Below are positions 2,995-62,869 of a stretch of DNA of 64,000 nucleotides, piece by piece. A program made the position numbers and the translations under genes. Source of the DNA: Gigantopelta aegis (Eukaryota; Mollusca; Gastropoda; Neomphalida; Peltospiridae); assembly GCF_016097555.1 (NCBI RefSeq), contig NC_054706.1, positions 56,497,407 to 56,561,406 of the forward strand, written 5' to 3'. Numbering within the stretch: position 1 is the stretch's first letter; each line of letters begins with the position of its first letter. The notes beneath the pieces were generated by a model that saw only the letters and a list, made by a program, of their open reading frames with translations, did not search any database and had not been told where the DNA came from.

Positions 2995-3290
2995 TTCAAA
3001 TATGTTTTTCATTTTGTGCAATATTGGATTGTTTACTACAACTCCAACCACTGTTTCTATGGTCTGACCACAGCGTTTGTTTTTGTCTTTTCGAAGATTT
3101 TATTTTTGGTATGTTGTTTTGATCATTTGCAGCTGTTTACTTTCTAATCTGTTTTTCGTTTTGTCTCGATAATTCGGTTCAATATTGGTTTGTTAATTAA
3201 CCACAGCTCCATAAACTGAACTGTTTTCATGGTCTGACCATAGTGTTTATTTTTTATCTTTTTGAAGATTTTATTTTTTTTGTATTTATT
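2995..3290. repeat. tandem duplication (~165 bp)
   Basis: Two diverged copies sharing caatattgg, atggtctgacca and cgaagattttattttt / tgaagattttattttt. Confidence 0.6.
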
Positions 3291-35700: not shown

Positions 35701-38700
35701 TATTAAACTTACAGAAACCCAGTTTAGTTTTTTTTAACAAAATATCAATTAATACTTGAAATTATTTCGCCAAATTAAAATAAAATTCGCCAATTGTTTT
35801 TAAAAATCGCAATTGGCGAATGTGGGGAGTGCCAGAGCCAGCCCTGCTCATGTACATGTATGTAATTTGTGGTGCAGCATATGTAGGTATATCAGCCTGT
35901 TCCAAAATCTGTACAATCAGTATGTAATTTGTGGTGCAGCATATGTAGGTATATCAGCCTGTTCCAAAATCTGTACAATCAGTATGTAATTTGTGGTGCA
36001 GCATATGTAGGTATATCAGCCTGTTCTGTACAATCAGTATGTAATTTGTGGTGCAGCATATGTAGGTATATCAGCCTGTTCCAAAATCTGTACAATCAGT
36101 ATGTAATTTGTGGTGCAGCATATGTAGGTATATCAGGATGTTCCAAAATCTGTACAATCAGTATGTAATTTGTGGTGCAGCATATGTAGGTATATCAGGA
36201 GCAAAATCTGTACAATGTATGTAATTTGTGGTGCAGCCAGGATGTTCCAAAATCTGTACAATCAGTATGTAATTTGTGGTGCAGCATATGTAGGTATATC
36301 AGCCTGTTCCAAAATCTGTACAATCAGTAATTTGTGGTCCAGCAGTATCAGCCTGTTCCAAAATCTGTACAATAATTTGTGGTGCAGCATATGTAGGTAT
36401 ATCAGCCTGTTCCAAAATCTGTACAATCAGTAGGTATATCATGTACGTATATCCTGTTCCAAAATCTGTACAATCAGTATGTAATTTGTGGTGCAGCATA
36501 TGTAGGTATATCAGCCTGTTCCAAAATCTGTACAATCAGTATGTAATTTGTGGTGCAGCATATGTAGGTATATCAGCCTGTTCCAAAATCTGTACAATCA
36601 GTATGTAATTTGTGGTGCAGCATATGTAGGTATATCAGCCTGTTCCAAAATCTGTACAATCAGTATGTAATTTGTGGTGCAGCATATGTAGGTATATCAG
36701 CCTGTTCCAAAATCTGTACAATCAGTATGTAATTTGTGGTGCAGCATATGTAGGTATATCAGGATGTTCCAAAATCTGTACAATCAGTATGTAATTTGTG
36801 GTGCAGCATATGTAGGTATATCAGCCTGTTCCAAAATCTGTACAATCAGTATGTAATTTGTGGTGCAGCATATGTAGGTATATCAGGATGTTCCAAAATC
36901 TGTACAATCAGTATGTAATTTGTGGTGCAGCATATGTAGGTATATCAGCCTGTTCCAAAATCTGTACAATCAGTATGTAATTTGTGGTGCAGCATATGTA
37001 GGTATATCAGCCTGTTCCAAAATCTGTACAATCAGTATGTAATTTGTGGTGCAGCATATGTAGGTATATCAGCCTGTTCCAAAATCTGTACAATCAGTAT
37101 GTAATTTGTGGTGCAGCATATGTACGTATATCAGGATGTTCCAAAATCTGTACAATCAGTATGTAATTTGTGGTGCAGCATATGTAGGTATATCAGCCTG
37201 TTCCAAAATCTGTACAATCAGTATGTAATTTGTGGTGCAGCATATGTAGGTATATCAGGATGTTCCAAAATCTGTACAATCAGTATGTAATTTGTGGTGC
37301 AGCATATGTAGGTATATCAGGATGTTCCAAAATCTGTACAATACCTATGTAATTTGTGGTGCAGCATATGTAGGTATATCAGCCTGTTCCAAAATCTGTA
37401 CAATCAGTATGTAATTTGTGGTGCAGCATATGTAGGTATATCAGCATGTTCCAAAATCTGTACAATCAGTATGTAATTTGTGGTGCAGCATATGTAGGTA
37501 TATCAGCCTGTTCCAAAATCTGTACAATCAGTATGTAATTTGTGGTGCAGCATATGTACGTACATCAGGATGTTCCAAAATCTGTACAATCAGTATGTAA
37601 TTTGTGGTGCAGCATATGTAGGTATATCAGCCTGTTCCAAAATCTGTACAATCAGTATGTAATTTGTGGTGCAGCATATGTAGGTATATCAGGATGTTCC
37701 AAAATCTGTACAATCAGTATGTAATTTGTGGTGCAGCATATGTAGGTATATCAGGATGTTCCAAAATCTGTACAATACCTATGTAATTTGTGGTGCAGCA
37801 TATGTAGGTATATCAGCCTGTTCCAAAATCTGTACAATCAGTATGTAATTTGTGGTGCAGCATATGTAGGTATATCAGCATGTTCCAAAATCTGTACAAT
37901 CAGTATGTAATTTGTGGTGCAGCATATGTAGGTATATCAGCCTGTTCCAAAATCTGTACAATCAGTATGTAATTTGTGGTGCAGCATATGTACGTATATC
38001 AGGATGTTCCAAAATCTGTACAATCAGTGTGTAATTTGTGGTGCAGCATATGTAGGTATATCAGCCTGTTCCAAAATCTGTACAATCAGTATGTAATTTG
38101 TGGTGTAGCATATGTAGGTATATCAGCCTGTTCCAAAATCTGTACAATCAGTATGTAATTTGTGGTGCAGCATATGTAGGTATATCAGGATGTTCCAAAA
38201 TCTGTACAATACCTATGTAATTTGTGGTGCAGCATATGTAGGTATATCAGCCTGTTCCAAAATCTGTACAATCAGTATGTAATTTGTGGTGCAGCAAATG
38301 TAGGTATATCAGCCTGTTCCAAAATCTGTACAATCAGTATGTAATTTGTGGTGCAGCATATGTAGGTATATCAGCCTGTTCCAAAATCTGTACAATCAGT
38401 ATGTAATTTGTGGTGCAGCATATGTACGTATATCAGGATGTTCCAAAATCTGTACAATCAGTATGTAATTTGTGGTGCAGCATATGTAGGTATATCGTGA
38501 TGTTCCAAAATCTGTACAATCAGTATGTAATTTGTGGTGCAGCATATGTACGTATATCAGGATGTTCCAAAATCTGTACAATCAGTATGTAATTTGTGGT
38601 GCAGCATATGTACGTATATCAGGATGTTCCAAAATCTGTACAATCAGTATGTAATATGGTAATAAATATCTCAGTCATTGACCATTAAAATAAAACACTG

Positions 38701-44235: not shown

Positions 44236-44283
44236 ATGCATATAAAAGAGTACAGAATATGCATGCCTCTCACAGTTGAAGAG
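44236..44283 (+). CDS. PITPNC1: PITPNC1 exon 1 (residues 1-16)
   Basis: ATG in context gccaacATGC, encoding [16 protein letters not shown], then donor GAG|gtaagc. Too short to appear as an obvious reading frame; recognised from the conserved [13 protein letters not shown] start of RdgB-beta proteins. Confidence 0.93.
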
Positions 44284-47200
44284 GTAAGCCATGGACCGAT
44301 GGGGACTTGCTGAGTTAGTGTCCGAACCAAATTGTTAACAACTACGAAAAATTATGGAATATTCTTCAAGAGGGGTGAAAGGATAAGTCTTAATCTAACA
44401 ACGTCATAACATGTTATGATATAAAAGCAAACGTGATGACGTCATATTATTTATTATTATTATTTTTTTTTTAATGATACCACTAGAGATCATTGATTTC
44501 ATATTAATTGTGTCACATACTTTTGAGGCTTTCACCCCTCTTGAAGAGTATTCCATAAACAAGCAACATGGCAGACGACAGAAAACGGCATGTATTTTTT
44601 CCTATGCAATCTCAGCAAAGACGATATTGGCGACATCGTTGCAATCTCGTGTGTGGAATCTGTATATTCGTAGTGGTTTTTTTTGTGATTTGTGTCTGGA
44701 CAAACTTTGGAGGAAATCTAACGGCAATTAAAGTTACATTCTCCGTATACCATATTATAACATCATGTACAAATGTGAAATACAAGCTCAAATGCACTTT
44801 TAAAAAAGTCGTGTGTGTTTGCTATGAACGGATATCGTCAAACGTATATGCTTGATTCGTCGCCTTTGCCGCCATAGCTTGGCAAAGCACAAACGACAGC
44901 CTGTTGTCAGTTTCAGTTAACACGTGCGTTTGCTGATTTCAAATTGTAGAGTTCGTCTCAAAAAATTAAAAGAGTTAAAACCGGTTTGATCTTGACAACT
45001 TATTATCGACAGTCGTACCTTCCTATTTCAAAATTGATATTTTATAAAATGTTAGTAGAACTTTCAAAGTTTAGTTTGTATACTAGTAACACATTAATCA
45101 TGTATATATTTTAGAAATAAAATATACTAAAGTAGACAATGAACGTTTCACTTCTTAATTTTATGTATTAAAATTGACAAATTCAAATAAATATTATTTC
45201 GTTTGGAAAGGGTAAAGTTGGGGGGGGTAGGGGTTGTTTAACGACATCAAAGATAAAGCATACGATTTATTATTGCCCCAGCAGGCACTCTTAATGGGGA
45301 AAATAAAAATCACTGAGAAATTATCATGCATTGGTTTAACGTACACTACTATTGGACGATTTGACGCCAACAAACCAATCACCTTGTCGATACTAAATAT
45401 GACGTCATCACGATTTGGCAAAGCACACACAATGATGTCACGTAGTTTAAAGAGTTTGTGTTTATGTCTTTCTGGTTTCAGTGTTAAACTTGTAATAAAA
45501 TGGTTGTTTAATGCAATTTATTATAGATATTCTTTACAGAATATATAGAACTTTGGGCTTTGAAAATTATCCGTGAATCGTGAATAAAATACAAAGTTAA
45601 AGCAATACCCAGAACAGTAAAGTAGTTAACGTCGTTTCTATATACGTGGACGTGTAGCCGATGTAGGCTATATCGAAAATAAAGGCTTTTAAAAACCATA
45701 CCTAGGGTAATAAATAGAATAACAAACTCGGTACCAGTTATTATCAAATTTATGTCCCTCGTGAAATACTTTTCATTTGTCACTCGCTAAAGCTCATGAC
45801 AATTGAAAATTATTTCACTCGGGATATAAATTTGATAATAACTGGGAACTTGTTTATTATCCTCTATATAATCATCCGACCCCATACAACCGTAAATAAA
45901 ATGTGTTGTGTGCGTCGTTAAATAAAACATATCCTATCCTTCCTTCCATCTACTGTTGGATGTCTAACATTTGGAAATTTTGACATATAATCTTAGAGAG
46001 GAATCGGGTGCATGTGCAGGAGGAGGGTATTGGAGGTCGAAACCCTTACTTGCCCAAGCTTAAAAAAATTTGAAATGTATTTTTGCGGGGAGCATGGCCC
46101 CATATAAACTTCGCTCAATGCAGTCTATAACCCCAACCCCGCTGAAATCCCTGCACGCGTGCCTTGGAAACCCGCTACATTTTTTATTTAGCAAGGGATC
46201 GTTTATATGTACCATCCGACAGACGGGATATCACATACCATGGTCTTTTATATACCCACCGATGGGGATCGATCCTAGACTGACTGCGCATTTCCAAAAA
46301 ACACCTTTTTAGGTCTAAGTAATGAATAAAAATAACATATAGTCTTGAAAAATGTTAACGTAAATCGAACACAGTATCCTCTACCTCTACCCCTAGAGCG
46401 TTACGTAATTAATAACACCCCCTTACATGTAACACACATGGCAACAGCGGGCCACTGTCAAAATTTCAAGGCAAATCCCCCACCCACCGACCCCTGGAAA
46501 GGCGTTGTACCATACCTCTATGGATATAAATATGTTTTGGAGATATGAGACAGTTAAATTTGTTCAAAAATTGCGAAATCTCACGTGATCTCTTGTTGGG
46601 GAATTCTATACTTATGATAAGCCAATGAAAACCGAGATCGGTACGAGCCCGTCAAAAGTGTCACACTTTCAAAATCATGGCTTTGTTTTTAACCTGGATA
46701 AGCCAGCATAGTGAAACCAATGTGGAGTGCGGCGTCATATATGCACCAAACGTAATTGGATTTTCTGTTCTATATTCTTAAATAATAAAAATATTCCAGA
46801 TACTGCCACTTTAAAGGTAGGAGAGTAATTTTTTGTAGTTGTTAACAATTTAGTTCGGACAGTAGTGAGTACTCTGTCGTTTGGGAGCATTTGGATGTTT
46901 ATGATCGGTCTCTACTGTCAGAGATCACTGTATAGCAAAAACGAAATGGATGCCTAAAACCTGGTTGTCAAAAAGTCCCGCTCTAATAGTCTAAACCAAT
47001 AATAACCCTATGTTTGATGTTGAATACCGTTATCAATGTTATGGTATTTAATAACCAATAATAACCCTATGTTTGATGTTGAATACCGTTATCAATGTTA
47101 TGGTATTTAATAACCAATAATAACCCTATGTTTGATGTTGAATACCGTTATCAATGTTATGGTATTTAATAACCAATAATAACCCTATGTTTGATGCTGA

Positions 47201-50200
47201 ATACCGTTATCAATGTTATGGTATTTAATAACCAATAATAACCCTATGTTTGATGTTGAATACCGTTATCAATGTTATGGTATTTAATAACCAATAATAA
47301 CCCTATGTTTGATGTTGAATACCGTTATCAATGTTATGGTATTTAATTTTAACGGGACTGTCCTGAGTTTCCTGCATTGTAAGATGTTTTCAACTAATAA
47401 AATCTTTTAACGTCTAAAAACACGGATTAAATATATTCCATGTGTTTTTGGTCGTCTTAATATTTGTAAGAGGCCCAAACTGGATTTTGTCTTCAAATAA
47501 TTTCATACGTACAATTTTTTTTTATTTTAGGAAATAAAATGAAATTTTACATAGTACAAACACTAGAATGATCAGAAACACGTTTAATATACAGCCACTA
47601 ATAATTTATGCAGAAAAGTATTTTTGATATGTAATTACAGTCGTTAAAAAGTCAACAACATATTAAAAATTGCAGCAAACTCAGGACTGTCCCTTTAACG
47701 TCAAACACAGGGTTATTATTATATTAGAGCAGGAATCTTTGACTACCTGATGGTAGGCAGCCATTCCCTGTTTTTGCTACACAGTTATCTGTTTGTTATC
47801 TGCAAACTTGAAAATGTCCGTCTACAGGTAGCTGTCGAACGGCAGAGTATACTCGGGCTAACCATGGACATGATGAACTTGAAATTAATGTTGATGGTCT
47901 ATTCTAAATTTAACTGTCTAAAGATAAATATTTTTGTTGCAGACTGCAGCTTTAATTTACCCTACTGTCATATGTCTTTCATCAATATTGGTTGGCGATA
48001 CTTCTTATATTAGTAAGAACAGTCCAATGCATAGGAACAACCTCTGGATTAGTGTGTTGTGGGTGTGTGGGTTGGCACAGCAACAATAAATGCTGTTGCC
48101 AAAAAAGCAAATCTAGTCCAAGACAACAAATATCACTTGATCAGTATAAATTTTCAAAACAAAATGTTCTCTGTTATGTTATCTGTTTTTGTCTGTGATA
48201 TATTGTAATGGTTGTGGTTGCAGTATCATATTGGTCAGCTGTACATGATCACAAAACACTGTCATGAGCAGAGTAACCAGGGCGAAGGTGTTGAGGTTGT
48301 GAAGAACGAGCCGTGCGAACATCCAGAACATGGGCGTGGCCAGTACACGGAGAAACGCATTTACCTGTCCAGGTAACTCAGCATACCTTTCACACAATAA
48401 CACACCACATACACCTGTATCTCAATATCAGAGAAACATATTTACCTGTCCAGGTAACTCAACACACTTTTCACACATACAGTACATGAAGAAATACATT
48501 TACCTGTCCAGGTAACTCAGCATACCCTTCACACACCAACACACAACATACCAGTACACAGAGAAACACATTTACCTGTCCAGGTAACTCAGAACACCCA
48601 TCACACACCAACACACCACATACCAGTACACAGAGAAACACATTTACCTGTCCAGATAACTCAGCACACCCTTCACACACCAACACACCACATACCAGTA
48701 CACAGAGAAAGACATTTACCTGTCCAGGTAACTCAGAGCACCCTTCACACACCGACACACCACATACCAGTACACAGAGAAACACATTTGCCTGTCCAGG
48801 TAACGCAGAACACCCTTCACACACCAACACACCACATACCAGTACACAGAGAAACACATTTACCTGTCCAGGTAACTCAGCACACCCTTCACACACCAAC
48901 ACACCACATACCAGTACACAGAGAAACACATTTACCTGTCCAGGTAATGCAGCACACCTTTCACACCAACACACCACATACCAGTACACAGAGAAACACA
49001 TTTACCTGTCCAGGTAATGCAGCACACCCTTCACACACCAACACACCACATACCAGTACACAGAGAAACACATTTACCTGTCCAGGTAACTCAGCAGACC
49101 CTTCACACACCAACACACAACATACCAGTACACAGAGAAACACACCCTGTCCAGGTAACTCAGAACACACACACCAACACACCACATACCAGTACACAGA
49201 GAAACACATTTACAGTTACATGTACCAGGAAAACATTTACCTGTCCAGCATACCCTTCACACACCAACACACCACATACCAGTACACAGAGAAAGACATT
49301 TACCTGTCCAGGTAACTTACTTGTACATGTACACAGAGAAACACATTTACCTGTCAGGTAACGCAGGTACACACCAACACACCACCCGCAGTACACAGAG
49401 AAACACAGTTACCTCAGCATACCTTTTACACACACATAACACACCACAATAACACACCACGTACACCTGTATCTCAGTAACAGAGAAACATATTTACCTG
49501 TCCAGGTAACTCAACACACTTTTCACACATACCAGTACACAGAGAAGCACATTTACCTGTCCAGGTAACTCAGCACACCTTTCACACACCAACACACCAC
49601 ATATCAGTACACAGAGAAACACATTTATCTGTCCAGGTAACTCAACACACTTTTCACACATACCAGTACACCGAGAAACACATTTACCTATCCAGATAAC
49701 TCAGCACACCTTGCACACACCAACACACCACATACCAGTACACAGAGAAATGCATTTACCTGTCCAGGTAACTCAGCATACCTTTCAGACACCTACCTAG
49801 AGAAATTCATTTACCTGTACACAGAGAAACACATTTACCTGTCCAGGTAACTCAGCATACCTTTTCACACAATAACACACCACATACACCTGTATCTCAG
49901 TAACAGAGAAACATATTTACCTGTCCAGGTAACTCAACACATTTTTCACACATACCAGTACACTGAGAAACACATTTACCTGTCCAGGTAACTCGGCATA
50001 CCTTTCACACAATAACACACCACATACACCTGTATCTCAGTAACAGAGAAACATATTTACCTGTCCAGGTAACTCAACACACTTTTCACACATACCAGTA
50101 CACCGAAAAACACATTTACCTGTCCAGGTAACTTAACACACCTTTCACACATACCAGAACACAAAGAAACATATTTACCTGTCTAGGTAAATCAAACACC

Positions 50201-50252
50201 TTTCACACACCTAAACCTCACATCAGTGCACAGAGAAATGCCCACATAAAAC

Positions 50253-50299
<47 letters not shown>

Positions 50300-53200
50300 A
50301 CATACACACGAACATACACACAAACACACACACACACACACACACATGAACACACACACACAAAAACAAAACATATTTCCCACTTTCCCATTCCCCAAGT
50401 CTTTTCCATTCTCTTCCACCTTCTCTCCCCCCCCACCCTTACCTTTCCCACCTTACCCCTTATCTTTTCCACCATTCGCACACCATGTCCCCATACTTCT
50501 CTTATCTTTCTTCTTCCACCTTCTCCCCCCACCCTTACCTTTCCCACCTTACCCCTTATCTTTTCCACCATTCGCACACCGTGTCCCCTTACTTCTCTTA
50601 TCTTTCTTCTTCCATCCATGTCACTCCTGACCTTTCTCTCCAACCTTCCACACTCACCTCAGGTAATCTTTAGTCAGCCTACAGCAGTGCTCGAAATTTG
50701 TGACAGTAATCAACAGTGCTGCTCTGCTGAACAATCAAAGACTGTGGTATGTGCTATCCTGTCTATGGGATGGTGTATATAAAAGATCCCTTGCCACTAA
50801 TGGCAAAATGTAACTGGTTTCCTTTCTAAGACTATATGTCAAAATTACCAAATGTTTGACATCCAACAGCCGACGATTAATAAATCAATGTGCTCTAGTG
50901 GTGTCATTAAACAAAACAACTTTTTTTCTTTCTCATCTATCGCCCTCTGCTTATCATTCTCATTATGTTAATATAAAAACTTTCCAATTTCTCCCACAAA
51001 TTTCAATCTGTTTCGATCCTGTCTGTCAGTTTCCTCCGACTCTGTCTTCTGAGCTACCGGCCTCGGTGGCGCCATGGTTAGGCCATCGGTCTACAGGCTG
51101 GTAGGTACTGGGTTCGGATCCCAGTTGAGGCATGGGATTTTTAATCCAGATACCGACTCCAAACCCTGCAAGGCGCAATGGGTAGGTGTAAACCACTTGC
51201 ACCGACCAGTGATCCATAACTGGTTCAACAAAGGCCATGGTTTGTGCTATCCTGTATGTGGGAAGCGCAAATAAAAGATCCCTTGCTGCTAATTGGAAAG
51301 AGTAGCCCATGTAGTGGCGACAGCGGGTTTCCTCTCAAACTCTGTGTGGTCCTTAACCATATGTCTGACGCCATATAACTGTAAATAAAATGTGTTGAGT
51401 GCATCGTTAAATAAAACATTTCTTTCTTTCCGTCTTCTGAGCTGTCCACACCATCGCCTACCTGTCTCAACTTCCTTCACGGGTGCAGTATCTGGTCTCT
51501 CTATATACTTCCCTACACCCACCTAACATCCTCGTTTATTGCTGCTAATAAAGCTTGTCTGACCCACAGCACTAACTAACAACCCCTGGTAGTAGAGTAT
51601 AGTACATATAGGTGGTTACAAGCTATAGTGCCTCTTAACAATGCTAGAAACTAGCAACTACTGAACATACATTTTTGTTTTTAAAATCAGCAGTGCAGCT
51701 GCGAAATGTTGTTGGTTAATTGATATGAGGTAGCATTTTGATTATTATTGGGAATTTATTTGTTTACCATCTCTACTAAAGTTTTGTAGCGAGATGATCT
51801 AAATTTCAAAGGCTGCTACAGCAGTTATATATATATATATATATTTTACATACATCTATATACGGTAATTTGTGTTTATATTGTCGACTGCATTAATTAT
51901 TACATATTTTCATTAAGAATTGTTTGTTGTTTTTGTGAATTTATCAACGTATAAAACTATAACAGGTTCAAATTGTACAAAATCGCGTAGTGTAGCAAAA
52001 CGTATTGATACTAAATTTGTGACTGTTAGGCCTATACATCGAAAAATTCACCAACATTTTTTACAAACAATTTTTATAATTACAAACAACACTTGTATTT
52101 AGTTAAAAATACACAAACATCAGCGACTAACGTCCTTTCCATGACCTGTTTTACATAATGATGTCCCATTTGATGTATTGATGTCATCTTCTGAGGTTCA
52201 TCGAAGGATGAAATTCACTTTTTAAGTGATGTCGTCCAGTCAGAATAGAGTAAATCATATAACTGTAAATGTATAGTTGTTAACGAATGCTTTCAGTGAA
52301 GGCCATGATCTACAGCTGCACTTTATTTATCAAATATGACATTTGGTATCTTTGCCATAGTTAAATTCAAGCCGTATACCTGTCTGTTTGGTTATAAGAC
52401 TACATGCAGTGTTATTTTATTTATTTCAGTCGATTACCAAGTTGGCTGAAATCCATGATTCCCAGAATCTTCTATGTTACAGAGAAGGCATGGAACTTTT
52501 ATCCATTTACTATTACAGGTAGGTAAAACATCTTAACAAAAAATATCAATGTTCTGCTCGTTAAATAGTGTGGTCATCATGGTGACTGCAATATACATTG
52601 TTCAAGTGTATATGAGTCTTTATATAATAATTATATGGTACTGTATAATATGGTCTTGTCTGCCAAGTCTATTCATCCATGAACATTTGATATTTGTGTT
52701 CTGTGATGAAAGAAGATGAAGGGAATGTCATGACACCTCAGCAACTTTAGTTATTTGGTATCTAAAATACGGTTATTTGATCTTGAGTGAGAAAACGTTA
52801 GTTTGTTTTGTTTAACGACATCACTAGAGCACACATGATCAAAAGGGCAATTCAACTGGCTTCCAGAATTCTTTTATGTTTTGGGTGGAAAAACCCAGTC
52901 TAGTGAGCAACTGCAAGCTAGCACACAGTCTTCTAAACATGACGATGCTCTAGGAATACTTTTTAAGATTTATAAAATTTTGTTTTGTATGTTATAGTTT
53001 TTAATTTTGTAATTTAATTCCTTGTTATTTTTTGTTATTTTTAAAGGGACATTCCCAAGTTTGCTGCATTGTAAGATGATTCCAACTAATAAAATATTTC
53101 TACGATTAAACTTAAAAATTAAATATATTTTCTTATTTAGAATATCAGTATCTGTATATTCAATGTGTTTCTGGTTGTCTTAATATTTGTAAGAAGCCCA

Positions 53201-54652
53201 AACTGGATTTTGTCTTCAAATAATTTTGTATGTACTAAAAAAAAAATATTTTAGGAAATAAAATGAAATTTAAACTAGTACAAATATTAGAACGATCAGA
53301 AACATGTTTAATATACAGCTACTAATATTTTATGCAGAAAAATATAGTTGATATGTAATTACAATCGTTAAAAAGTCTCCGTTAGTCGATCACATCTTAA
53401 AAATTGCAGCAAACTCAGGAATGTCCCTTTAAGAAGCTAAGATATCAAATTATTTACAGTTTGTATTAATGTCATATTTTTGGCTTTCTTTTTTTCTTTC
53501 CATATTTGCCGTGGATCATCTTTTACACAGAATATACTGTAAGTCATTTATACGGTGATTTATTTTGAAGTAAGGAATATTAAAGTTTACATTATTGATT
53601 ATCTTTACAGAGTTCTAACAGGAAGTCATACATGTAATTATATAAGTAATACTCCAATTTAACACTGCTGTTGAAGTGCTTCTAAACACACTTCCAGTGT
53701 ATTGTTATTAGTAAACTGTTTTAAATTAGGATAAATTCCAGGTTTAGCATTGTTCTTAAACTGTTCTAGGATGCACAGGCCCAAATCTAATTGTTGAAAT
53801 GGAGGGGTTTTTTAGCCAAAAGTTAGCTAAAGTTGCATAGTTATTAGCAGTAGTGAGAAGTCAAATTAGCCATAATATTTTGGATTTAATTGATTTCAAA
53901 AACAAATCCCAAAGCATGACCCCCAACTTGTTGTCATACAAGTAGTTCACATAACACGTTGACGGTCTGTATGTTTTACATTGGCGCCATATATACTATA
54001 CAACAACAAATCTCTGATGTCACGTCGTTTGCAGTGAGCACTCAAACGTTGCTTAGAATTACATGTAGTTCTTGGCAAGATTTATTTAAGTAATGCCAGA
54101 AAATACAAATTTATTACTGTCATTTTAACATAACAATGACACATTAATTATAAGTTACTTAATACTATCTCATTTTAAATGACAATATTCAATTGTTGTA
54201 ATTAAATGTTATAATTGATAACGAAATATTAGGATTAAGACCGTGTGTGTAATTTGGAACATTTCCGAATGAATGCAGAACATGATTGATGAAACACAAC
54301 AAAATGTTAACATTGCCTAATTTGACCACACTTCTCTTCTTCCCCCTGGGATGGGAGAAGTCACTTCTCTTACTTTTTCAATTCTAGTTTGGGGCCTGAA
54401 TACATTTTCATTTTGGCATTGTTCTTCAACTGCTTTAGGATAAATTTTCAATTTAGCATTGCTCTTAAACTATGTTAGGATGAAGTTTCCATTTAGCACT
54501 ATATTACATGTATATAGTTAATTTTCCAATTTAGCGTTATTGGTAAATTGTTGCTTTTGATATTTTCAGTGTTCATTCATTCCAAGGTTCTCCATTCACA
54601 TAGACACAGTTTACCAAGATAATACTGGCATATCTGAAAATGTAAGCAAAAT

Positions 54653-54690
<38 letters not shown>

Positions 54691-57600
54691 TGAACAAAAT
54701 AAGAAACTTCCGCTAACTTTGTTTGAACATAACTTGATGAAAACAAACCGGGGGAATAATTGTTATATATGCGTTTAAAGAGTGTTCCATGATGCATCGT
54801 TTGGTGCAAAAATCATGGCCATAGGTTAACAGAAACTGGGAGAAATTTTGACCAAGTGTGGTAGGGGTTAAAAATAAAAACACCCACTTAATAACTGGTA
54901 TGACCACCTCTTGAATTGACCACTGCAGTGCATGGCAGGCGCATAGAATTGACTAAAGTGTTGATTTCTGCCTGTGGAATATTGTTCCATTCCTGAATGA
55001 GCGCTTGACGAAGTTCGTTGACGTTAGCGGGTGGGTTGGGACAACGCCTCAATCGTCTGTCCAGACAATCCCAGGCATGCTCGATGGGGTTGAGATCAGG
55101 ACTTTTAGTGGGCCAGTCATCAATGAAATCAATGTTATTTGTCCTAAGAAAATTTACAGTGTCTCTAGCTGTATGAGAGGTGGCATTATCATGCTGAAAA
55201 ATCGAGATGTTGGCGTTGTTATGGAACAGGAATGATGTGATGAACGAGAATGTCATCGCGGTAACGTTGAGCATTTAAATTGCCATCAATGACGACTAGT
55301 GGTGAACGATAACCATGGGCAGTGGCTGCCCAGACCATGACAGAACCCCCACCCCCGAAACAATCTCGTTCAAGAACACAACAGTCAGCATAGCGTTCAT
55401 TTCTCCAACGGTAGACGCGCACCCTGCCATCACCACGTTGTAAAGAAAATCGGGATTCATCTGAAAAAAGAACGGTATTCCAGCGTCGCCGTATCCAACG
55501 AGTGTGTACACATGCCCAATTAAGACGATTTAGACGATGACGTTGCGTTAAAACGCATCCGACGTAAGGACGTCGTGCATGTAAACCATTCTCCCGCAGA
55601 CGATTACGAACAGTTTGCCCACTGATTCGGTTATTGTGAAGCCCAGGTGTGTTAGCAGCAGTAGCAGTGGCAGTTTGGAATCGATTGCGCAAATGTGTGT
55701 TCATGATATAGCGGTCTTGACCACGTGTTGTAACACGCGGACGTCCACGAGGTGGCAAGTCGTTGGTGCTTCCTGTCGTTCGAAATCTTACGCGAAGATT
55801 TCGTATCGCTCGACTAGAACTCCCAACATGCCTTGCAACGTCTTCTGTCGACATGCCAGCATCAAGCATGTCAGTCACCCGTTCGCGTAAATTATTGGGT
55901 ATTCTTGGCATACTAAAAATGCTACAATGTAAAAAACTTTAATTTTTTTTACAAATTTTGAAGCGTTTTCGTTCACTTGACAACAATGTCAGTAAGACAA
56001 GTAAAAAAAATTGACTGAATACTACACGGGACATGTCGAACCATGCATGCATGTGCAAATTGAATTTCACGTTGTCGACGATTAACAGTGCAAAAATAAT
56101 CAATAAAATTCATGAATCCTGATAATACAGCTCAAGGCTAATACTACCTATATAATTTCATTACACAATGAATTCTTTAACACAACAACTACTATATGTA
56201 CAAATCGGAAGTTTCTTTTTTTGTTCAGTATATATATATATAGTTACAAACTCTGATTTGTATAGATGATACAATGTGTTAATTAAAGTACCTGTGTAAC
56301 TGTTTTATTTTGAGAATATTTAACACTGAAATTATAACAAATGAGACATGTATGCAGTTTATTGGAGCATAGTAAAGGTGGTAATGAGTTGTTTTCATCC
56401 ATGACTCTCCCATACAAAAATTTGTTTAGATTGGGGTTAAAAAACTTAATAATAAAAAATAAAAAAAAAATATATATATATATTTATAATTGTAATTTAT
56501 TTAAGAAAAGCTGTTCTCACATAAGTTTGTGGATGATTTTTTTTGGTTCATACCCAGATGAACGCAAAAGAAATAACAGACTTATAATTAAATTTGAATC
56601 ATACTTGCTAATAATAACACTGAAACTTCATACTTTATTTTGAATTATTTTTGGTCCATAAACAATAATGCACAATAAGACAGCGTGCCCATTTAAAATG
56701 ATGTCATCAGATATGATGTTCCCTGATGATGTAATGTTTACATTCATCGAGAAAGGAACAAACTCCCGTTGCTACATCTAGACCATTGGGATGACATTAT
56801 CTTGTAACGAATATAACGGTAATTTAATTATATACTAGTAATGAAAAAATTAAATAAAAAGGTCAAGTATTTAAATGACACAATAAGTGGGTAATAAAAG
56901 CAAAAACTCAAATTTCTCTAAATAATTTTATAATAATAATACTCGGTGTAGGATAACCTTTATTTGAAGAAAAACTCATTCATTTCCTTTTTTCCTTCCC
57001 TTTGATTTGATTTGTAACAGTACATGATAAAGCTATATAAATTTCAGCTCAATATCTGGAGGTGTTGCAAAATAAAAGTCAAGATTTTCTTCTTCTTTTC
57101 TATCCTATGTTCAAGGACCACAACTCTCTCAATAATCAGTAAATGGACATGAAAATCAAAGTTGATCTGTAACAGTAAATGATAAAGCCATACAAACAAT
57201 TTCAGCTCAGTATTTTTAGGCATTGCGAAAAAAAGTGTGAAAAACTGTATGTGGGACAGAAGGACTCCCTGACAGACAGACAGACAGACAGTCAGACAGA
57301 CAGTCAGACAGACAGACAGACAGATGGTCAGACAGACAGACAGTCAGACAGACAGTCAAACAGTCAGACAGACAGTCAGATAGACAGACAGACAGACAGT
57401 CAGACAGACAGACAGACAGACAGACAGAAGGACAGATACAGAACTTACAGTCCCCTCCGGTTGGACTGGTTGGGGCTAATAAGAGGTTAGGTGAAACACA
57501 ATCTAATTAAAATTAGCTCCACTATTACATGTGGATCTAATGGCAGCACGTTGGAGCTCATGTCCAGTTGACATTTCATTCGACCAATCAAAACCTCACT

Positions 57601-58575
57601 TGCAAAATCATGCCAGTAATTTGAAAAGAATTTGAAAACATTCGGGATTATGCCGAGGGTATACAAAACGATTCAGGTGAATTATAAAGTATGCCGGAAA
57701 CTAATTGCCATATAAAAATTTATATAAAATTTGTTTCAAGATGAAAAAAAAACCCCGTGATGGTATAGCCATAAAATCTGTTTATACTAGTATACAATCC
57801 AGAGTTTATTACTGCACTTTCCCCCCTGTTTTTTCAGTGTTGAAATAAACCAACAAGTTAGCCTATTGCATAAATAGTCTTGGCCGATATTTTTAGAATT
57901 TGTATGCTCCCGAATAACGCTATAAAAGGCAAAGCGTAATTGGTCGATATTTAAATTGTTATTTATAGATGAAATGTCACCTGGACAAGGGAGTCCACGC
58001 AATGCTGTTAGATCTACTAGCAGACCCAGTACAGCTAATTTTAATCAGATTGGGTGAAGCAAACTGTTTATTAAAAAAAAAACCCCCCAAAAAACCTGTA
58101 TACACATGTACATTTAGATGATTCTGTTTTAATCTATATTGAAATGACAAATAAACCAGATTATAGCTCTGAGTAAAAAGCCCAAATTGTTGATAAGGGT
58201 TTTCATTACTTTTTAGAGTTTAAATCTGCCACCAGAGGAGCTGGATGTGCGTGAGGTTGACAATGTTGACATTGTGTTCGACGCAGTGCCAGAAAAACAC
58301 TACAAACCAGAAGAGGTTCGTATGTTACCATAGCAATACACTTTAAAACCAACCAAAAGGATTTTTTTAAATCAATGACTGTTCGGTGTCAAGAAGATAT
58401 TTTTTCATGCTGGGATGTCATTAAATATTATTCATTCCTTCACTCATTTGTAAATTCAATAATTCATCTGTCCATCCGATCATTCATTCATTAATTCAAG
58501 TATTCATTCAATTATTCATTCAATTATTCATTCATCCATCCATCCATCCATCCACCCACCCACCCACCCACCCAC

Positions 58576-58614
<39 letters not shown>

Positions 58615-61600
58615 TCTATCTCTTCCATCCATCCATCCATCCATCTCATCCATCCATCCATCCCTCCATCCCTCCATCCACCCCTCCATCCATCCATTTA
58701 TCCAGCAATCCCTCCATCCATCCATCCATTCATCCAGCGATCCCTCCATCCATCCATCCATCCATCCATCCATCCATCCATCCATCCATCCATCCATCCA
58801 TCCATCCATCCATCCATCCATCCCTCCAGCCATCCAGCCATCCATTCATTGTCAGGTTTTACAGTTACTATACTACACTTGAGACTATTTGTTTTAGTCT
58901 CCAAACCTTCAACCTATATTTTCGCATAATTTGTCTGTTTTACATAATATGGTAATATATTGTGTTATTTTTTTATTTTTTTTAGGATCTCAGAACATTT
59001 ATATCCAAAAAGACTGGCCGAGGCCCAATGAAAGAAGATTGGAAGGTTGTTTACTTTTCTGATTTCCACACATTTATTTGACCATGTTATCTAAGTGGTG
59101 GTGGTGGTGGGGGGGGGGCAGTTGTAGCTCAGTGGTGCAGTGCTCGCCTGATGTACAATTGATCTAGGATCAATTCCTGTCAGTGGGCCCATTGGGCTAT
59201 TTTTTGTTGCAACCAATGCTCCACAACTGGTGTAACAAAGGCTGTGGTATGTACTATCCTGTCTGTGGGATGGAACATATAAAAGATCCCTTGCTGCTAG
59301 TTGAAAAGAGGAGCCCATGAAGTGGCGACAGTGGGTTTCCTCTCTCAATATCTGTGTGGTCTTTAACCATATGTCCGACACCATATAACCGTAAATAAAA
59401 TGTGTCATTAAAACTTGCCGGGTGGGAGCCGGTACCGGGCTGTGAACCCTGTACCTACCAGCTTGTAGTCCGATGGCTTAACCACGACACTACCAAGGCC
59501 GGTAGGTAAATAAAAAACTTACTGCCCTGTCTTCAGATAGGGAAAGTGAATTTAGAAGATCTGTTGTCTTTGTTTTGTAGTAGTGGTCTTCGTGGCCACA
59601 GCAGGTTTCTTCTCTTACTATCTAGACCCAGTGTCATGGTACCCATATGGTAGACACCAAATGGTGTAGTAGTTTAAGATGTGCTGAGGTGTCATTATTA
59701 AACACGGTTGATTCTTTCTTTCCTGGGGCTGGACCCACATTTTTGAAGCCATCGTAGCACAACGAAATCGTAAAACCATCATAGGTTGTGACATCACTAC
59801 AGCACATGCCATAGTGACGTCACAATTTACGATGGTTTTACGATTTCATAGGCTAAGATTGCTTCGAATTAGTTCCGTCAGTAGAACGATCGTCTGAGGT
59901 GCTTGGGTCATGGGATTGAATCTCATTGGCAGACCTATTGGTGCTAATTCCGTGGGTCATGGGATTGAATCTCATTGGCAGACCTATTGGACTAATTCCG
60001 TCAGTAGAACGATCGTCTGAGGTGCTTGGGTCATGGGATTGAATCTCATTGGCCGATTGGGATTTTTCCTGTCCCAAACAGTGTTCCACAACTGGTCTAT
60101 TAAAGGCTAATGTACGTGCTGTTCTGATTGTAGGAAAAGTGTGTGTATAAGATCCACTGCGGCTGATAGAAAAATGTAGCAAGTTTTCTCTAAAGACTGT
60201 GTCAAAATTATAAAACGTTTGACATTCAGTAGTCGATGATTAATTAATCAGTGTGCTCTAGTGGTTAAACAAAAACGTTTAACTTTTTTTCTTTCCAGTT
60301 GCGGTGACTACGGTGTTATCTTTCGTGTTTACATGTAGTTCCTAAATCAATAAAATCAATAACATTTAATTTATTGTTGCATCAGATTCTGTGAATGTTC
60401 ATCTTGGAACATATTTAAAACCAAAACAAAATTATCATATTAAATTTTTATTTTATTTATTTTTCATTTTATTTTTGAAAAAGGAACTACATGTAGATTA
60501 ATCGTGTTTTATATCATGTTTTGAAAAAAAGTTATGTTTTTTTTAGTTTGCATTGAGATGAACATCACAGGGTTTTATCACCTATGTTTCTAAACTCCAA
60601 TAATCAGCACCATTCCCCACCATTCCTCAAAAGCTGTGTTGTTTTTTATTTCCCAATCAACGTAAATAATTCTAATTTTTTAAATATTATATTAAGGCAT
60701 ATTTTTAAAACAGTACATAAGACTAGGTATTAATTTGAATAAATACAAGTATATGTATAGCATTAGCCTTTTCGAATCTAACAAGGCTTACTAAGATGTT
60801 TTTTAAATGAAACTGAAAATTCCCCAGATTTTGTAAAACAATGCTAAAATTCCCAAAGTCAAAGCCATGGGTGTCAAGTCAAATTTTAGAAATAAAACCC
60901 TGCATCAATAGGTGCAATTGTGAGTGACACCAAATCAGTTTATGGAATTTTTGGTTTTAGAAATCTATACACGGTATATTTTAGCTACTCTTAGTAACAC
61001 AACAACACCATGACTCGGAACGTAAAGCCCTGTCCTAACTGGCTGCGAGCGATTATTTTAGAAATCATTGATTTCCATTGCCGCATCCTAACTGCACGTG
61101 TGCGATGCGACAGATTTATATCAATGATTTCTAAAATAATCGCTTGCATCGCTCACATCGCTCACATCGCATGTGGCCGGTTAAGATACAGCTTAAGAAT
61201 TTGTTACATACAGCAATTTTGAATTTTTTTTAAATGAGGCAAAATGCTCACTGATGGCAATTTTGAACCTGCCTACAGCAATTTTAAAACCAGTAACCAA
61301 TGCAATAAATAAATAAAAAATAATTATCCCTTCAACCGATGGCAATAATTTTTATCCAGCAGGAAAAAAATTATCATTGGAAAAGTCCCTGTCATATATG
61401 TATGGCAATTCATATCGCAGTGATGGCAATTCATATCGCAGTGATGGCAATTCATATCGCAGTGACGGCAATTCATATCGCAGTGACGGCAATTCATATC
61501 GCAGTGACGGCAATTCATATCGCAGTGACGGCAATTCATATCGCAGTGACGGCAATTCATATCGCAGTGACGGCAATTCATATCGCAGTGACGGCAATTC

Positions 61601-62869
61601 ATATCGCAGTGACGGCAATTCATATCGCAGTGACGGCAATTCATATCGCTGTGACGGCAATTCATATCGCAGTGACGGCAATTCATATCGCAGTGACGGC
61701 AATTCATATCGCAGTGACGGCAATTCATATCGCAGTGACGGCAATTCATATCGCTGTGACGGCAATTCATATCGCAGTGACGGCAATTCATATCGCAGTG
61801 ATGGCAATTCATATCGCAGTGACGGCAATTGCTGTCATAAAATTCCATCCCTGCAACACTTACTTCAACAACTTATATCTAGTTAAAAGACATGTTGGGT
61901 TTTTCATTCAGGCACAGTGAAGCAGGGGGTCGATGGTGGGGGTGGGTGGGAGGGCTCCAGCCCCAGCAATAATTCTGAATCAAAAATATTATTGTTAGTA
62001 AATCTTAAGGCAGATATGAATTTTAATTGTATTTCAGGACATCTAGTTTTCAAAATTTTCTGGGGGAGCATACCCCCAAGTTCCCTTGAAACTTTGCTTT
62101 GCACCCTTGATATCCATCAGCACCCCCACCCCCCAATGTCTACTTGCTTCTGCCGTACTGTCATTCATACTAATCCTCCATCGCATAGTTTATTTTAAAT
62201 TAAACGTTGTTAGTAATTATCAGTGTTGATAAAACACAAAAAGTTACATGATTATGATATTGTTGTCTTTATATTTGTAGGAGAATACAAAACCAGTGAT
62301 GTGTTCCTATAAGGTGGTCAAAGTGAAGTTTGAAGTCTGGGGAATGCAGGGGAAGGTAGAGTCTTTTACTCACAAGGTACGCATTATAGTTTTCAAATCT
62401 GTTCATTTTAATGCTTAAATTACAACAGAAATGCCATTTTAAAGTAAATTTGCATCAGGTTCCAAAAGTTTATGATGGTTTAAGAACATGACAGTAGAAG
62501 AATTATTTGGTATCTTTTGCATAAAGATAAAGAATTTAAAGATAAATTTTGTAAAAACTCTAGAATTTTAAGATAAATAACTTTTGTCTACAAATACCTT
62601 TTGTCTTTTGTCTGTATTCTATGCAACCTAGGTACCTTGCCACCTTACTATAAGTAAACAATTTAATTAGTAAACTGCATGTTCATCTCCATTATGGTAA
62701 TATTAATAAATAATTTCAAATTCACAAAAAGTGTTTTACATGCAGTTGTGGTAATAGTTTTTTTTTTTCCTATAGGCTGTGAGGTAATTGTTTTTCTTCC
62801 TACAGGCTGTTAGAGATATCTTGTTGCTGGGACACAGACAGGCTTTTGCATGGATTGATGAATGGATAG
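44236..62869 (+). CDS. PITPNC1: PITPNC1 / RdgB-beta, cytoplasmic phosphatidylinositol transfer protein 1 (9 coding exons seen, 3' end outside window)
   Basis: Soluble class II PITP that moves phosphatidylinositol and phosphatidic acid between membranes. Exons, all GT/AG and in phase: 44236-44283, 48224-48372, 52430-52518, 53531-53538 (8 nt), 54570-54641, 58217-58315, 58986-59045, 62281-62376 and 62806-62869. They encode 228 complete codons plus one base of the next. Family stretches: [20 protein letters not shown] (exon 1/2 join), [60 protein letters not shown] and [12 protein letters not shown]. These follow human PITPNC1 and fly rdgB-beta rather than PITPNA/B. The final exon(s), with the variable C-terminal tail, are not visible before 64000. 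The start ATG gives MHIKEYRI against MLLKEYRI in human. Divergent partner of PSMD12. Identification is by recalled similarity. Confidence 0.96.
44350..44557. mobile_element. foldback element in PITPNC1 intron 1
   Basis: Arms 44352-44382 and 44523-44556 (atggaatattcttcaagagg, ggtgaaag) are inverted with one or two differences. The centre holds a decayed SINE-B scrap (ataccactagagatcattga). Confidence 0.75.
44570..44857 (+). other. small ORF with one hydrophobic segment in PITPNC1 intron 1
   Basis: ATG in context gcaacATGG, 95 codons. A basic N-terminus ([20 protein letters not shown]) precedes a membrane-like segment [16 protein letters not shown]. It would suit a type II signal anchor. It begins just after a foldback arm (44523-44556). 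No homology recognised; it could be chance or a first exon. Confidence 0.2.
45731..45850. mobile_element. foldback element (~120 bp)
   Basis: Arms ccagttattatcaaatttat, gtccctcgtgaaata inverted against tatttcactcgggatataaa, tttgataataactggg; about 40 bp each. Confidence 0.85.
45885..46295. mobile_element. decayed SINE fragments
   Basis: Plus-strand family A tail (gtaaataaaatgtgttgtgt) at 45890-45940. Minus-strand family B pieces at 45950-46010 and 46165-46295 (gatcgtttatatgtaccatc, gatggggatcgatcctagac). Confidence 0.7.
46994..47347. repeat. 59-bp tandem repeat, 6 copies
   Basis: Near-identical units (aaccaataataaccctatg, ttatcaatgttatggta); only one substitution noticed (ttgatgctg), so the expansion is recent. 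Confidence 0.97.
47353..47694. mobile_element. TTAA-flanked foldback MITE, copy 2
   Basis: TTAA|cgggactgtcc ... ggactgtccct|TTAA, nested in the composite element. Confidence 0.88.
48224..48372 (+). CDS. PITPNC1: PITPNC1 exon 2 (residues 17-66)
   Basis: Acceptor gtggttgcag|TATCAT and donor TCCAG|gtaact. 149 nt, ends in phase 2. Encodes [18 protein letters not shown], then [11 protein letters not shown] and [10 protein letters not shown]. The last ~33 nt plus the donor is the seed of the minisatellite that follows. The donor lacks G at +5. Confidence 0.96.
48340..50215 (+). repeat. minisatellite derived from PITPNC1 exon 2 / splice donor
   Basis: About 25 copies, mostly 72-73 bp with shorter (~58) and longer (~80) variants. 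Each holds a near copy of the last ~33 nt of exon 2 (cagtacacagagaaacac, atttacctgtccag), the donor gtaact, and an intronic CA-rich stretch. Many copies keep an intact CAG|GTAA. The real junction at 48372/48373 is the first unit. Long reading frames over this region on both strands follow from the repeat and are not genes. Confidence 0.93.
50252..50346. repeat. (CA)n microsatellite
   Basis: CA runs broken by cgaacata and aacacaca words. Confidence 0.95.
50395..50620. repeat. tandem duplication of a polypyrimidine tract (~108 bp x 2)
   Basis: Both copies share cacccttacctttcccacct, taccccttatcttttccacc and attcgcacacc.tgtcccc. C/T on the plus strand. Confidence 0.9.
50727..50935 (+). mobile_element. 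SINE family B, 5'-truncated
   Basis: gtggtatgtgctatcctgtc through accaaatgtttgacatccaa to aaacaaaacaac. Confidence 0.88.
51056..51431 (+). mobile_element. SINE family C, full length with target-site duplication
   Basis: C-type head, family A body and tail. Flanked by gtcttctgagct at 51044-51055 and 51432-51443. Confidence 0.94.
52430..52518 (+). CDS. PITPNC1: PITPNC1 exon 3 (residues 66-96)
   Basis: Acceptor ttatttcag|TCGATT and donor ATTACAG|gtaggt. 89 nt, phases 2 in and 1 out. Encodes [20 protein letters not shown], then WNFYPFTIT. Confidence 0.96.
52797..52835 (-). mobile_element. SINE family B tail fragment
   Basis: agtttgttttgtttaacgac then atcactagagcacac. Confidence 0.6.
53045..53428. 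mobile_element. TTAA-flanked foldback MITE, copy 3
   Basis: TTAA|agggacattcc ... ggaatgtccct|TTAA, 384 bp. Ends about 100 bp before the microexon. Confidence 0.92.
53531..53538 (+). CDS. PITPNC1: PITPNC1 exon 4, 8-nt microexon (completes Glu96, encodes Tyr97 Thr98)
   Basis: AATATACT between acceptor cttttacacag and a near-perfect donor gtaagt. With the last G of exon 3 it gives GAA TAT ACT = EYT. That is exactly the tripeptide missing between FTIT (exon 3) and CSFIPRFS (exon 5), as human PITPNC1 reads TITEYTCSFLPKFS. Without it the frame breaks. Confidence 0.88.
53640..54545. repeat. degenerate ~45-bp motif clusters
   Basis: Recurring tttagcattg, ttcttaaactg, ttaggataaattt words at 53650-53780 and 54410-54545. 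Confidence 0.45.
54570..54641 (+). CDS. PITPNC1: PITPNC1 exon 5 (residues 99-122)
   Basis: Acceptor gatattttcag|TGTTCA and donor GAAAAT|gtaagc. 72 nt, phase 0. Encodes [20 protein letters not shown] plus ISEN, matching the family CSFLPKFSIHIETKY. Confidence 0.94.
54690..56228 (-). mobile_element. Tc1/mariner-type transposon (1.54 kb)
   Basis: Terminal inverted repeats ctgaacaaaataagaaactt / matching right end, about 23 bp, flanked by TA inside a (TA)n run on both sides. It sits in PITPNC1 intron 5 in antisense and contains one transposase gene with a frameshift. Confidence 0.92.
54891..55911 (-). pseudogene. Tc1/mariner transposase, one frameshift
   Basis: N-terminal paired-like HTH begins [16 protein letters not shown] and includes [20 protein letters not shown], then a GRPR hinge ([10 protein letters not shown]). 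The catalytic DDE domain has [20 protein letters not shown] and [11 protein letters not shown], then [16 protein letters not shown]. The first ~230 codons run from 55911 to 55219. The rest (54888-55274) is in another frame, so a one-base indel near 55,220-55,270 splits it. By my count 35 residues lie between the second Asp and the Glu, not the 34 of Tc1. Length is otherwise normal (about 340 codons), so decay is recent. Confidence 0.88.
56505..56830. mobile_element. interspersed element, copy 2
   Basis: Matches 21025-21340: cttgctaataataacactga, gatgtcatcagatatgatg, gagaaaggaacaaactccc. Confidence 0.8.
57263..57430. repeat. (GACA)n microsatellite
   Basis: GACA and GTCA units, about 165 bp. 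Confidence 0.97.
58217..58315 (+). CDS. PITPNC1: PITPNC1 exon 6 (residues 123-155)
   Basis: Acceptor actttttag|AGTTTA and donor GAAGAG|gttcgt (unusual T at +3). 99 nt. Encodes [20 protein letters not shown] and [13 protein letters not shown]. This is the divergent middle of the PITP fold before the conserved KTGRG. Confidence 0.9.
58376..58850 (+). repeat. LINE tail fragment expanding into (ATTC)n/(ATCC)n array
   Basis: The 58376-58430 stretch resembles the LINE tail (ttcatgctgggatgtcatta). It then grades through ATTC units to a long ATCC array with CAGC and CTCC variants (58525-58846). It ends about 135 bp from exon 7. Confidence 0.85.
58986..59045 (+). CDS. PITPNC1: PITPNC1 exon 7 (residues 156-175)
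   Basis: Acceptor atttttttag|GATCTC and donor TGGAAG|gttgtt (unusual T at +3). 60 nt. Encodes [20 protein letters not shown], containing the PITP signature KTGRGP. Confidence 0.93.
59109..59412 (+). mobile_element. SINE family A
   Basis: Head cagttgtagctcagtggtgc, core, and tail ending gtaaataaaatgtgtcatta. A (GGT)n/G run precedes it. Confidence 0.88.
59415..59507 (-). mobile_element. SINE family C head fragment
   Basis: gtacctaccagcttgtagtc, gatggcttaaccacgacact, joined directly to the previous SINE tail in opposite orientation. Confidence 0.75.
59757..59853. mobile_element. foldback element (~97 bp)
   Basis: cgaaatcgtaaaaccatcat ... ttgtgacatcacta inverted against tagtgacgtcacaa ... cgatggttttacgatttc. 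Confidence 0.85.
59867..60295 (+). mobile_element. SINE family B with internally repeated head
   Basis: The segment cttgggtcatgggattgaat, ctcattgg occurs three times in the head. The tail is agtcgatgattaattaatca, gtgctctagtggttaaac. Confidence 0.75.
61018..61180. mobile_element. foldback element
   Basis: gcgattattttagaaatcat and atgatttctaaaataatcgc are perfect inverted arms. Outer cctaactggc / gccggtta also pair loosely. Confidence 0.85.
61405..61832. repeat. 21-bp tandem array, about 20 copies
   Basis: Unit gacggcaattcatatcgcag t, in PITPNC1 intron 7. Variation is nearly limited to gatgg/gacgg and cagt/ctgt. Because 21 is a multiple of 3, several frames on both strands stay open; these are not genes. 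Confidence 0.97.
62281..62376 (+). CDS. PITPNC1: PITPNC1 exon 8 (residues 176-207)
   Basis: Acceptor atatttgtag|GAGAAT and donor CACAAG|gtacgc. 96 nt. Encodes [20 protein letters not shown] and KVESFTHK, the conserved lipid-cavity strand region. Confidence 0.95.
62757..62787 (+). other. duplicated (decoy) splice acceptor before PITPNC1 exon 9
   Basis: A poly-T tract, cctatag and GCTGTGAGG mimic the true tract, cctacag and GCTGTTAGA 30 bp downstream. Splicing at 62776 would read Ala-Val-Arg and then TAA at 62785-62787. It could be a decayed duplicate or a poison acceptor. Confidence 0.6.
62806..62869 (+). CDS. PITPNC1: PITPNC1 exon 9 (residues 208-229, last one seen)
   Basis: Acceptor cttcctacag|GCTGTT and donor GGATAG|gtaagt. 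64 nt, phase 1 out. Encodes [20 protein letters not shown] plus I. The acceptor is preceded by a duplicated copy of itself (62757-62787). The next exon lies beyond the window. Confidence 0.95.

Follow-up and report, generated by a model that had tools for sequence, protein, structure and literature searches.

A donor-side "mirage" minisatellite at the start of intron 2 of a PITPNC1-like gene in the vent snail Gigantopelta aegis, most likely without a function of its own

Introduction

What does it mean for a gene when a real 5' splice site is directly followed by a ladder of its own copies? The question is raised by a PITPNC1-like gene, a lipid-transfer gene of the vent snail Gigantopelta aegis, which hosts a tandem array in intron 2. 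The gene lies in a window of 64,000 nucleotides, which is the whole stretch of DNA analysed here. An initial annotation, made from the letters alone, had read the array as copies of the end of exon 2 with its donor, and had suggested that later donors might extend the peptide, influence splice choice or recruit U1.

Tandem repeats that cross exon-intron boundaries have been named "mirages" in amphioxus, with Adh3 cited as a case (PMC3087553); statements on published systems in this text refer to the accessible parts of the papers. The G. aegis genome (1.15 Gb, 15 pseudo-chromosomes) comes from PacBio Sequel data, with wtdbg2 as assembler and Racon and Pilon for polishing (PMC7895826). Both the number of copies in the array and its single bases depend on that long-read assembly (1,149,253,464 bases).

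Results

Host gene and the end of exon 2

The best protein match to the joined exons 1-8 (228 aa) is a 295-aa "cytoplasmic phosphatidylinositol transfer protein 1-like" of G. aegis (public protein P0001), to which 228/228 residues are identical with exon 2 spliced at 48372; P0001 and the other annotated models are predictions. Exon 2 on its own matches PF02121 (9e-18), and this match together with the identity to P0001 bears out the exon end first proposed at 48372. The coding features are as follows (a slash within a motif marks the splice junction).

44236..44283, plus strand: exon 1, coding part, donor gtaagc; identical to P0001
48224..48372, plus strand: exon 2, 149 nt, its last 2 nt in the split codon AG/T; P0001 reads YLSSRLP across the junction
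48373, plus strand: real donor of exon 2, CAG/GTAACT
52430..52518, plus strand: exon 3
53531..53538, plus strand: microexon AATATACT, 8 nt, between exons 3 and 4, completing E-Y-T; TITEYTCSF in P0001
54570-54641, plus strand: exon 4
58217-58315, plus strand: exon 5
58986-59045, plus strand: exon 6
62281-62376, plus strand: exon 7
62806-62869, plus strand: exon 8

Exons 4 to 8 are placed by the match of the joined exons 1-8 to P0001, and the 8-nt microexon AATATACT, located through a protein motif, is matched by P0001. Intron 2 measures 4057 nt, of which about 1.85 kb is array.

Two further observations concern the same gene. At the start of exon 8 (62765-62825) stands a near-identical acceptor-like pair, TTTTCCTATAGGCTGT and TTCTTCCTACAGGCTGT (20 nt, 90%), which is a small acceptor-side duplication. 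On the minus strand, 54891-55911 holds broken Tc1-type transposase ORFs (PF01498, 3.2e-14; PF13358, 2.8e-8).

Architecture of the array

48340..50220 (end approximate), plus strand: minisatellite of exon tail, donor and CA-rich spacer
48340..48378, plus strand: founder unit of the core, made up of the final 33 exon nt (48340-48372) and GTAACT
48474..49213, plus strand: most regular stretch, 72-bp period, 10.4 copies, 92% matches
49812..50151, plus strand: 140-bp (81+59) higher-order repeat, closest to the exon-adjacent 140 bp
50254..50362, plus strand: (AC)n microsatellite directly after the array

Beyond the real site, a scan anchored on AG/RTAA found 24 copies between 48454 and 50187, 22 with GTAA (21 CAG/GTAA, one TAG/GTAA) and two with ATAA (at 48656 and 49696). 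A fuzzy scan for exon tail plus donor added about four units that have lost the donor (near 49199, 49228, 49398 and 49800). The array thus totals ~28 copies with a GT donor in 22; the donor has been lost in 6 of the ~28, ~4 times by rearrangement and twice by G>A. The earlier description, with about 25 downstream copies of tail and donor and an intact CAG/GTAA in most of them (21/24), agrees with these counts. Its span also stood at the start, 48340, while the end, put at 50215, lies slightly further on, at ~50220.

Copy spacing is mostly 72, 59 and 81-82, with some irregular values, and the repeat periods are 59, 72, 81 and 140. The density of ACAC is 77.5 per kb in the array versus 3.4 in the remainder of intron 2, and AATAAA or ATTAAA occurs six times in the intron downstream of the array.

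The neighbourhood is rich in minisatellites, with 13 arrays making up 9.2% of 164 kb. Other examples in the window are 35858-38655 (main block 62 bp x 35.5), 46994-47347 (59 bp x 6, 99%) and 61404-61830 (21 bp x 20), and a 7.2-kb tandem array with a period of 36 or 78 lies ~1 kb beyond the window end (locus L009, 964-8202). A GC-richer stretch with minus-strand ORFs at 24952-29134 gave one sub-threshold tyrosine recombinase match (PF00589, 24.3 bits versus 27.1) and is perhaps a DIRS-like element.

Origin of the repeat from exon 2

The exon-adjacent 140 bp are 95.0% and 96.4% identical to the far-3' stretches at 49847 and 49988, and 80-85% identical to the 72-bp copies of 48512-49014. Because of the high identity to the far-3' copies, the exon end is a true member of the array; because it is nearer to these than to the 72-bp copies, the 72-bp block seems to have expanded later, within an older 81+59 dimer array.

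T58-E59-K60-R61, encoded in the repeated tail, is invariant in 11/11 aligned PITP sequences (eight molluscs including G. aegis, one annelid, one lancelet and one fish), whereas the commonest array copy reads T-E-K-H. The two CpGs of the exon tail are kept in place in 0/24 aligned copies, with G to A as the commonest change at both, and two copies have a CG displaced by one base. Since T-E-K-R is invariant and both CpGs are lost in the copies, the exon is the ancestral form, and the array was copied from the exon tail and donor. The derivation proposed earlier is upheld by the same residues, by the CpG loss and by the 95-96% identity.

Minisatellites are common in this neighbourhood, and the likeness could in principle be a coincidence, or the effect of a dispersed satellite lying beside exon 2. 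Against it, BLAST of the exon-adjacent 140 bp with single copies gave E-values of 1e-11 to 3e-66, an identity to exon 2 beyond chance as the initial annotation had anticipated, and the exon itself is conserved PITP sequence. In the whole 1.15-Gb assembly the repeat unit had 26 matches, all at the array locus on one contig, in a search that skips very common words. The dispersed satellite is rejected on this confinement to one locus, and the explanation as a whole has a negligible probability.

Strength of the decoy donors and their predicted products

The U1 duplex of the real exon 2 donor has an energy of -8.0 kcal/mol, compared with -9.6 for the exon 1 donor and about -11.5 for the exon 3 donor, the last being scored one base away from its actual position. 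Twenty-one of the 24 copies pair with U1 at -8.0 or -8.1 kcal/mol, one at -6.7 and the two ATAA copies at -1.6. Elsewhere in the window, 56 of 3902 plus-strand GT sites pair with U1 at the level of the real donor or better. G at +5 is missing from the real donor and from the copies (0/24). The description of a weak real donor lacking G at +5, followed by a ladder of decoys, was accurate.

The products of these decoys are uniform in silico. When any GT copy is spliced to exon 3, the first intronic codon retained is an in-frame TAA (AG/G TAA; 22/22), and all 22 give one identical predicted truncation of 66 residues, however many units are included. Peptide extension through later donors, which had been put forward for this array, is rejected, because a ladder whose first retained codon is TAA is unable to lengthen the PITPNC1-like protein. 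The decoy exons would measure 230-1963 nt against 149 nt for the real exon. A stop codon more than 50-55 nt before a junction usually marks a transcript for NMD. Since the premature stop lies 77-1810 nt upstream of the new junction in 22/22 GT copies, each of the 22 decoys is a predicted NMD target by this rule, and the ladder can waste transcripts or do nothing.

Waste of this kind could itself be regulatory. In such an unproductive-splicing rheostat, the decoys would compete for U1, some transcripts would meet the TAA and be degraded, and the length of the array would tune the output of the gene. The equal U1 pairing of 21/24 copies and the NMD-type stop behind every GT copy are what this reading requires, but the annotated protein, a predicted model, uses the first donor, the donor is gone from 6 of ~28 copies, and amphioxus mirages leave splicing undisturbed according to the accessible text of two reports (PMC3087553, PMC3902484). 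No clear constraint on the decoys was found in the aligned copies either (see below), and we consider the rheostat unlikely.

The copies also have the form of combined acceptors and donors. Each ACCTGTCCAG/GTAACT might act as a zero-length exon in a silent recursive splicing process, by which the intron would be taken out in steps that leave no mark on the mRNA. Splicing into any GT copy would regenerate an identical exon end and donor, and zero-length use would keep the protein unchanged. The consensus of fly recursive sites is (Y)nNCAG/GTAAGT (PMC5126111, accessible part), however, and the array copies depart from this ratchet-site pattern, as the G at +5 that it requires occurs in 0/24. The pyrimidine content before the AG of the copies is at background (0.55 versus a mean of 0.49), although the exon's own acceptor, at 0.50, is no richer than the copies. 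The intron is just 4.1 kb long. Taken together, recursive splicing is highly improbable here.

U1 shields introns from early polyadenylation, and hnRNP L binds CA-rich RNA. The copies might accordingly serve as a platform that recruits U1 or an hnRNP L-like protein and aids the weak first donor. U1-matching sites alternate here with very CA-rich spacers, and six AATAAA or ATTAAA motifs follow downstream in the intron; yet CA-rich tandem repeats arise without function, and the copies again lack clear constraint. We regard this platform as very unlikely.

Constraint on the decoy donors

Among the 24 aligned copies, non-majority cells make up 1.7% of the junction block (-13..+4), compared with 6.5% upstream and 10.9% downstream. 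Variant types are depleted in the junction block over all columns (Fisher p=0.005), but the units had been picked by AG/RTAA, which is part of the block then tested. With the AG/RTAA selection columns removed, p is 0.056 in the 24 aligned copies (computed with 262 cells, the underlying table summing to 260), and on singletons in the same copies it is 0.12. The junction block is thus only marginally less variable, and we do not count this as selection on the decoy donors, because of these two values and of the donor losses (~4 through rearrangement, two through G>A). A role of the ladder in U1 recruitment or splice choice, as first suggested, finds no support in a p of 0.056 at the junction block and donor loss in 6/~28 copies.

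Other exon-boundary arrays in the genome

Whole-genome searches supplied a sample of 53 coding-exon loci, namely 23 matches to PITP and the 30 best-scoring of 124 to kinesin. In the PITP set, four fall under the family cut-off; the exons of L037, L038 and L040 are backed by annotated proteins, and L039 is unconfirmed. Besides the window, clear arrays across the donor are present at three of the 53 loci: a PITP-alpha paralog has two of them and a kinesin gene the third.

C3:91731195-91731422: L025, PITP-alpha paralog; array at L025 1723-3228 repeating the last 17-18 exon nt plus GTAAAT
C3:91725977-91726063: L038, same gene as L025; array at L038 1564-3087 repeating the last 21 exon nt plus GTAGAG
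C9:83029789-83030040, minus strand: L042, kinesin; array at 1809-3252 (reverse complement) repeating the last 43 exon nt plus GTGAGA

The L025 array has a 57-bp unit (19 codons) in 26.5 copies with 96% matches, that of L038 a 67-bp unit in 22.8 copies, and that of L042 a 58-bp unit in 25.3 copies, these numbers being lower bounds where an array reaches the end of its locus. The exon end of L042 was placed from the reading frame, without an annotated protein. The annotated PITP-alpha protein (P0121) fits splicing at the first donor for the L025 and L038 arrays alike (GPDWK/TSVRP and QLDE/ARL). The L025 array differs from that of the window in that its 19-codon unit keeps the frame open for 684 nt beyond the coding match, so that extension by 19-residue units is possible in principle, though it is missing from P0121.

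Other candidates were set aside. At L043 the repeat starts ~22 nt past the coding match and is intronic; the matches at L044, L049 and L064 are short, weak or of low complexity; at L026 the array abuts the donor with no clear exon part; and at L070, L059 and L057 it lies near the boundary, not across it. L047, a kinesin locus with two or three diverged tail copies, was kept as weak. L026 itself, on the small contig C629, is a PITP exon that contains a TAA in frame and whose array sets in directly at the donor.

At the same thresholds, 0/53 loci showed an acceptor-side array; duplications as short as the 20-nt pair at exon 8 would go undetected at this setting. With the window locus included, donor against acceptor arrays stand at 4 versus 0 (two-sided sign test, 0.125), an asymmetry that is suggestive only. 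By chance, 0.17-0.34 boundary-spanning founders would be expected on one side of 53 exons from the density of 13 arrays per 164 kb. Three were seen in 52 with the window locus left out, and the resulting P of 0.0007-0.005 is optimistic, since one gene contributes two of the three arrays and array density is raised around the sampled exons (40 rows, including double counts where loci overlap).

Genome-wide, a triple AGGTAAGT pattern gave 1109+968 = 2077 matches against 1752+1549 = 3301 for the reversed control, and hence no excess. This test is weak because it counts units, not arrays (among the matches listed, part come from a few large arrays), and because AGGTAAGT demands one strong donor which 0/4 arrays have (GTAACT, GTAAAT, GTAGAG, GTGAGA). 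The absence of an excess therefore speaks weakly against a widespread donor-side class.

If such a class did exist, donor-side mirages would be widespread and one-sided in this genome, with duplication of exon 3' ends tolerated or favoured, duplication of acceptors purged, and some arrays able to extend proteins. Donor-side duplication would be tolerated because the first-transcribed donor wins. On the present sample, we hold this generalization to be possible but doubtful.

Discussion

Considering all the above results, we propose that the array is a donor-side mirage minisatellite in which the first donor is spliced and which most likely has no function of its own; we put the probability of this reading at about 75%. 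A stretch of DNA across the exon 2/intron 2 junction would have been tandemly duplicated, and later expanded and turned over. Exon origin and turnover of the array are evident at the level of sequence, and slippage or unequal exchange would be the duplication process. Coding selection would act on the first copy alone, which stays exon, while the others become intronic with competent-looking donors. The first donor is most likely the one used, as it is the earliest transcribed and closes the normal 149-nt exon, and the annotated protein agrees. Occasional use of a decoy would be noise, because all decoys lead to a single class of product that stops at once in frame, and for which removal by NMD is expected.

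This proposal is supported by the predicted model P0001, which reads YLSSRLP and is identical over 228/228 residues, by first-donor splicing at the two arrays of the PITP-alpha paralog in P0121, by the abundance of minisatellites in the neighbourhood, and by amphioxus mirages, which are described without splicing interference in the accessible text (PMC3087553, PMC3902484). Several points count against neutrality. The junction block is less variable than its flanks (1.7% versus 6.5% and 10.9%) in units that were selected by part of that block, the real donor is no stronger in U1 pairing than the decoys, and up to 22 near-identical donors with copied exonic context could compete with it.

The array has the structural features of a mirage as far as the sequence reveals them. 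Its units are tandem and of minisatellite size (periods 59, 72, 81 and 140; 24 extra copies), they span the boundary (33 exon nt plus donor, in an exon identified by PF02121 and P0001), and AG/GT is kept in many but not all of them (22 GTAA, 2 ATAA, ~4 lost). In amphioxus, the BflGb6 mirage is on the acceptor side, its two haplotypes having 6 and 3 units, and in BflGb9 the 3' boundary of exon 2 is present in duplicate; such mirages seem not to interfere with regular splicing, vary in length even somatically, and were proposed as a source of new introns (PMC3087553). Further cases are PGBD5 and troponin C (PMC3902484). As portrayed in these papers, the likeness to our array lies in minisatellite-size units spanning an exon-intron boundary, an authentic exon at the array edge, splice signals kept in many units and a gene product that fits use of the authentic site. 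The G. aegis array differs in its gastropod host, its donor side, its recurrence among sampled exons and its 24 to 28 copies, versus 6 and 3 in BflGb6 and a duplicate in BflGb9.

Related processes are known elsewhere. Intron gain by tandem duplication of AGGT segments (Rogers model) has been described for ATP2A1, potato RdRp and fission yeasts (PMC4974935, PMC3629103). Tandem AG/GT copies are shared with G. aegis, where AGGT is present in 22/24; according to the same sources those of potato cross an exon-intron border and those of the yeasts comprise several 24-nt units. In contrast, the G. aegis repeats lie within one 4057-nt intron, with no new intron shown, and the potato duplication is on the acceptor side whereas ours is on the donor side. 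Human variable internal tandem repeats at exon-intron boundaries are associated with alternative transcripts and with putative new introns in recent paralogs (PMC2812944); these too are minisatellite expansions able to shift exon or intron identity, but with ~30-bp units in ~4 copies in the accessible text. In myostatin-2 of Sparus aurata, intron 1 carries a length-polymorphic block of repeats at its 5' end, the same placement as here, but with one or two ~150-bp copies and no exon content stated in the accessible part (PMC3045353). The accessible part of an abalone paper reports an intronic 27-bp minisatellite and mentions no exon-boundary repeat, and we found no mollusc mirage in the open-licence literature searched. 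Mirages are thus a rare but known class, and the present case adds a host among the gastropods, a new copy number and recurrence within the sampled exons.

The finding extends an obscure lancelet oddity to a mollusc, where it is not a one-off. With 22 near-identical donors at known spacings behind one real donor, the locus is a natural test of 5' splice site choice, and its readout is unambiguous, as any decoy leads to the same truncated frame. If the widespread class were true, the genome would offer an extensive set of natural 5' splice site ladders, and arrays like that of L025 could lengthen proteins by whole repeat units. If the asymmetry held genome-wide, it would support first-come donor choice and show a route to new exons or introns in the making.
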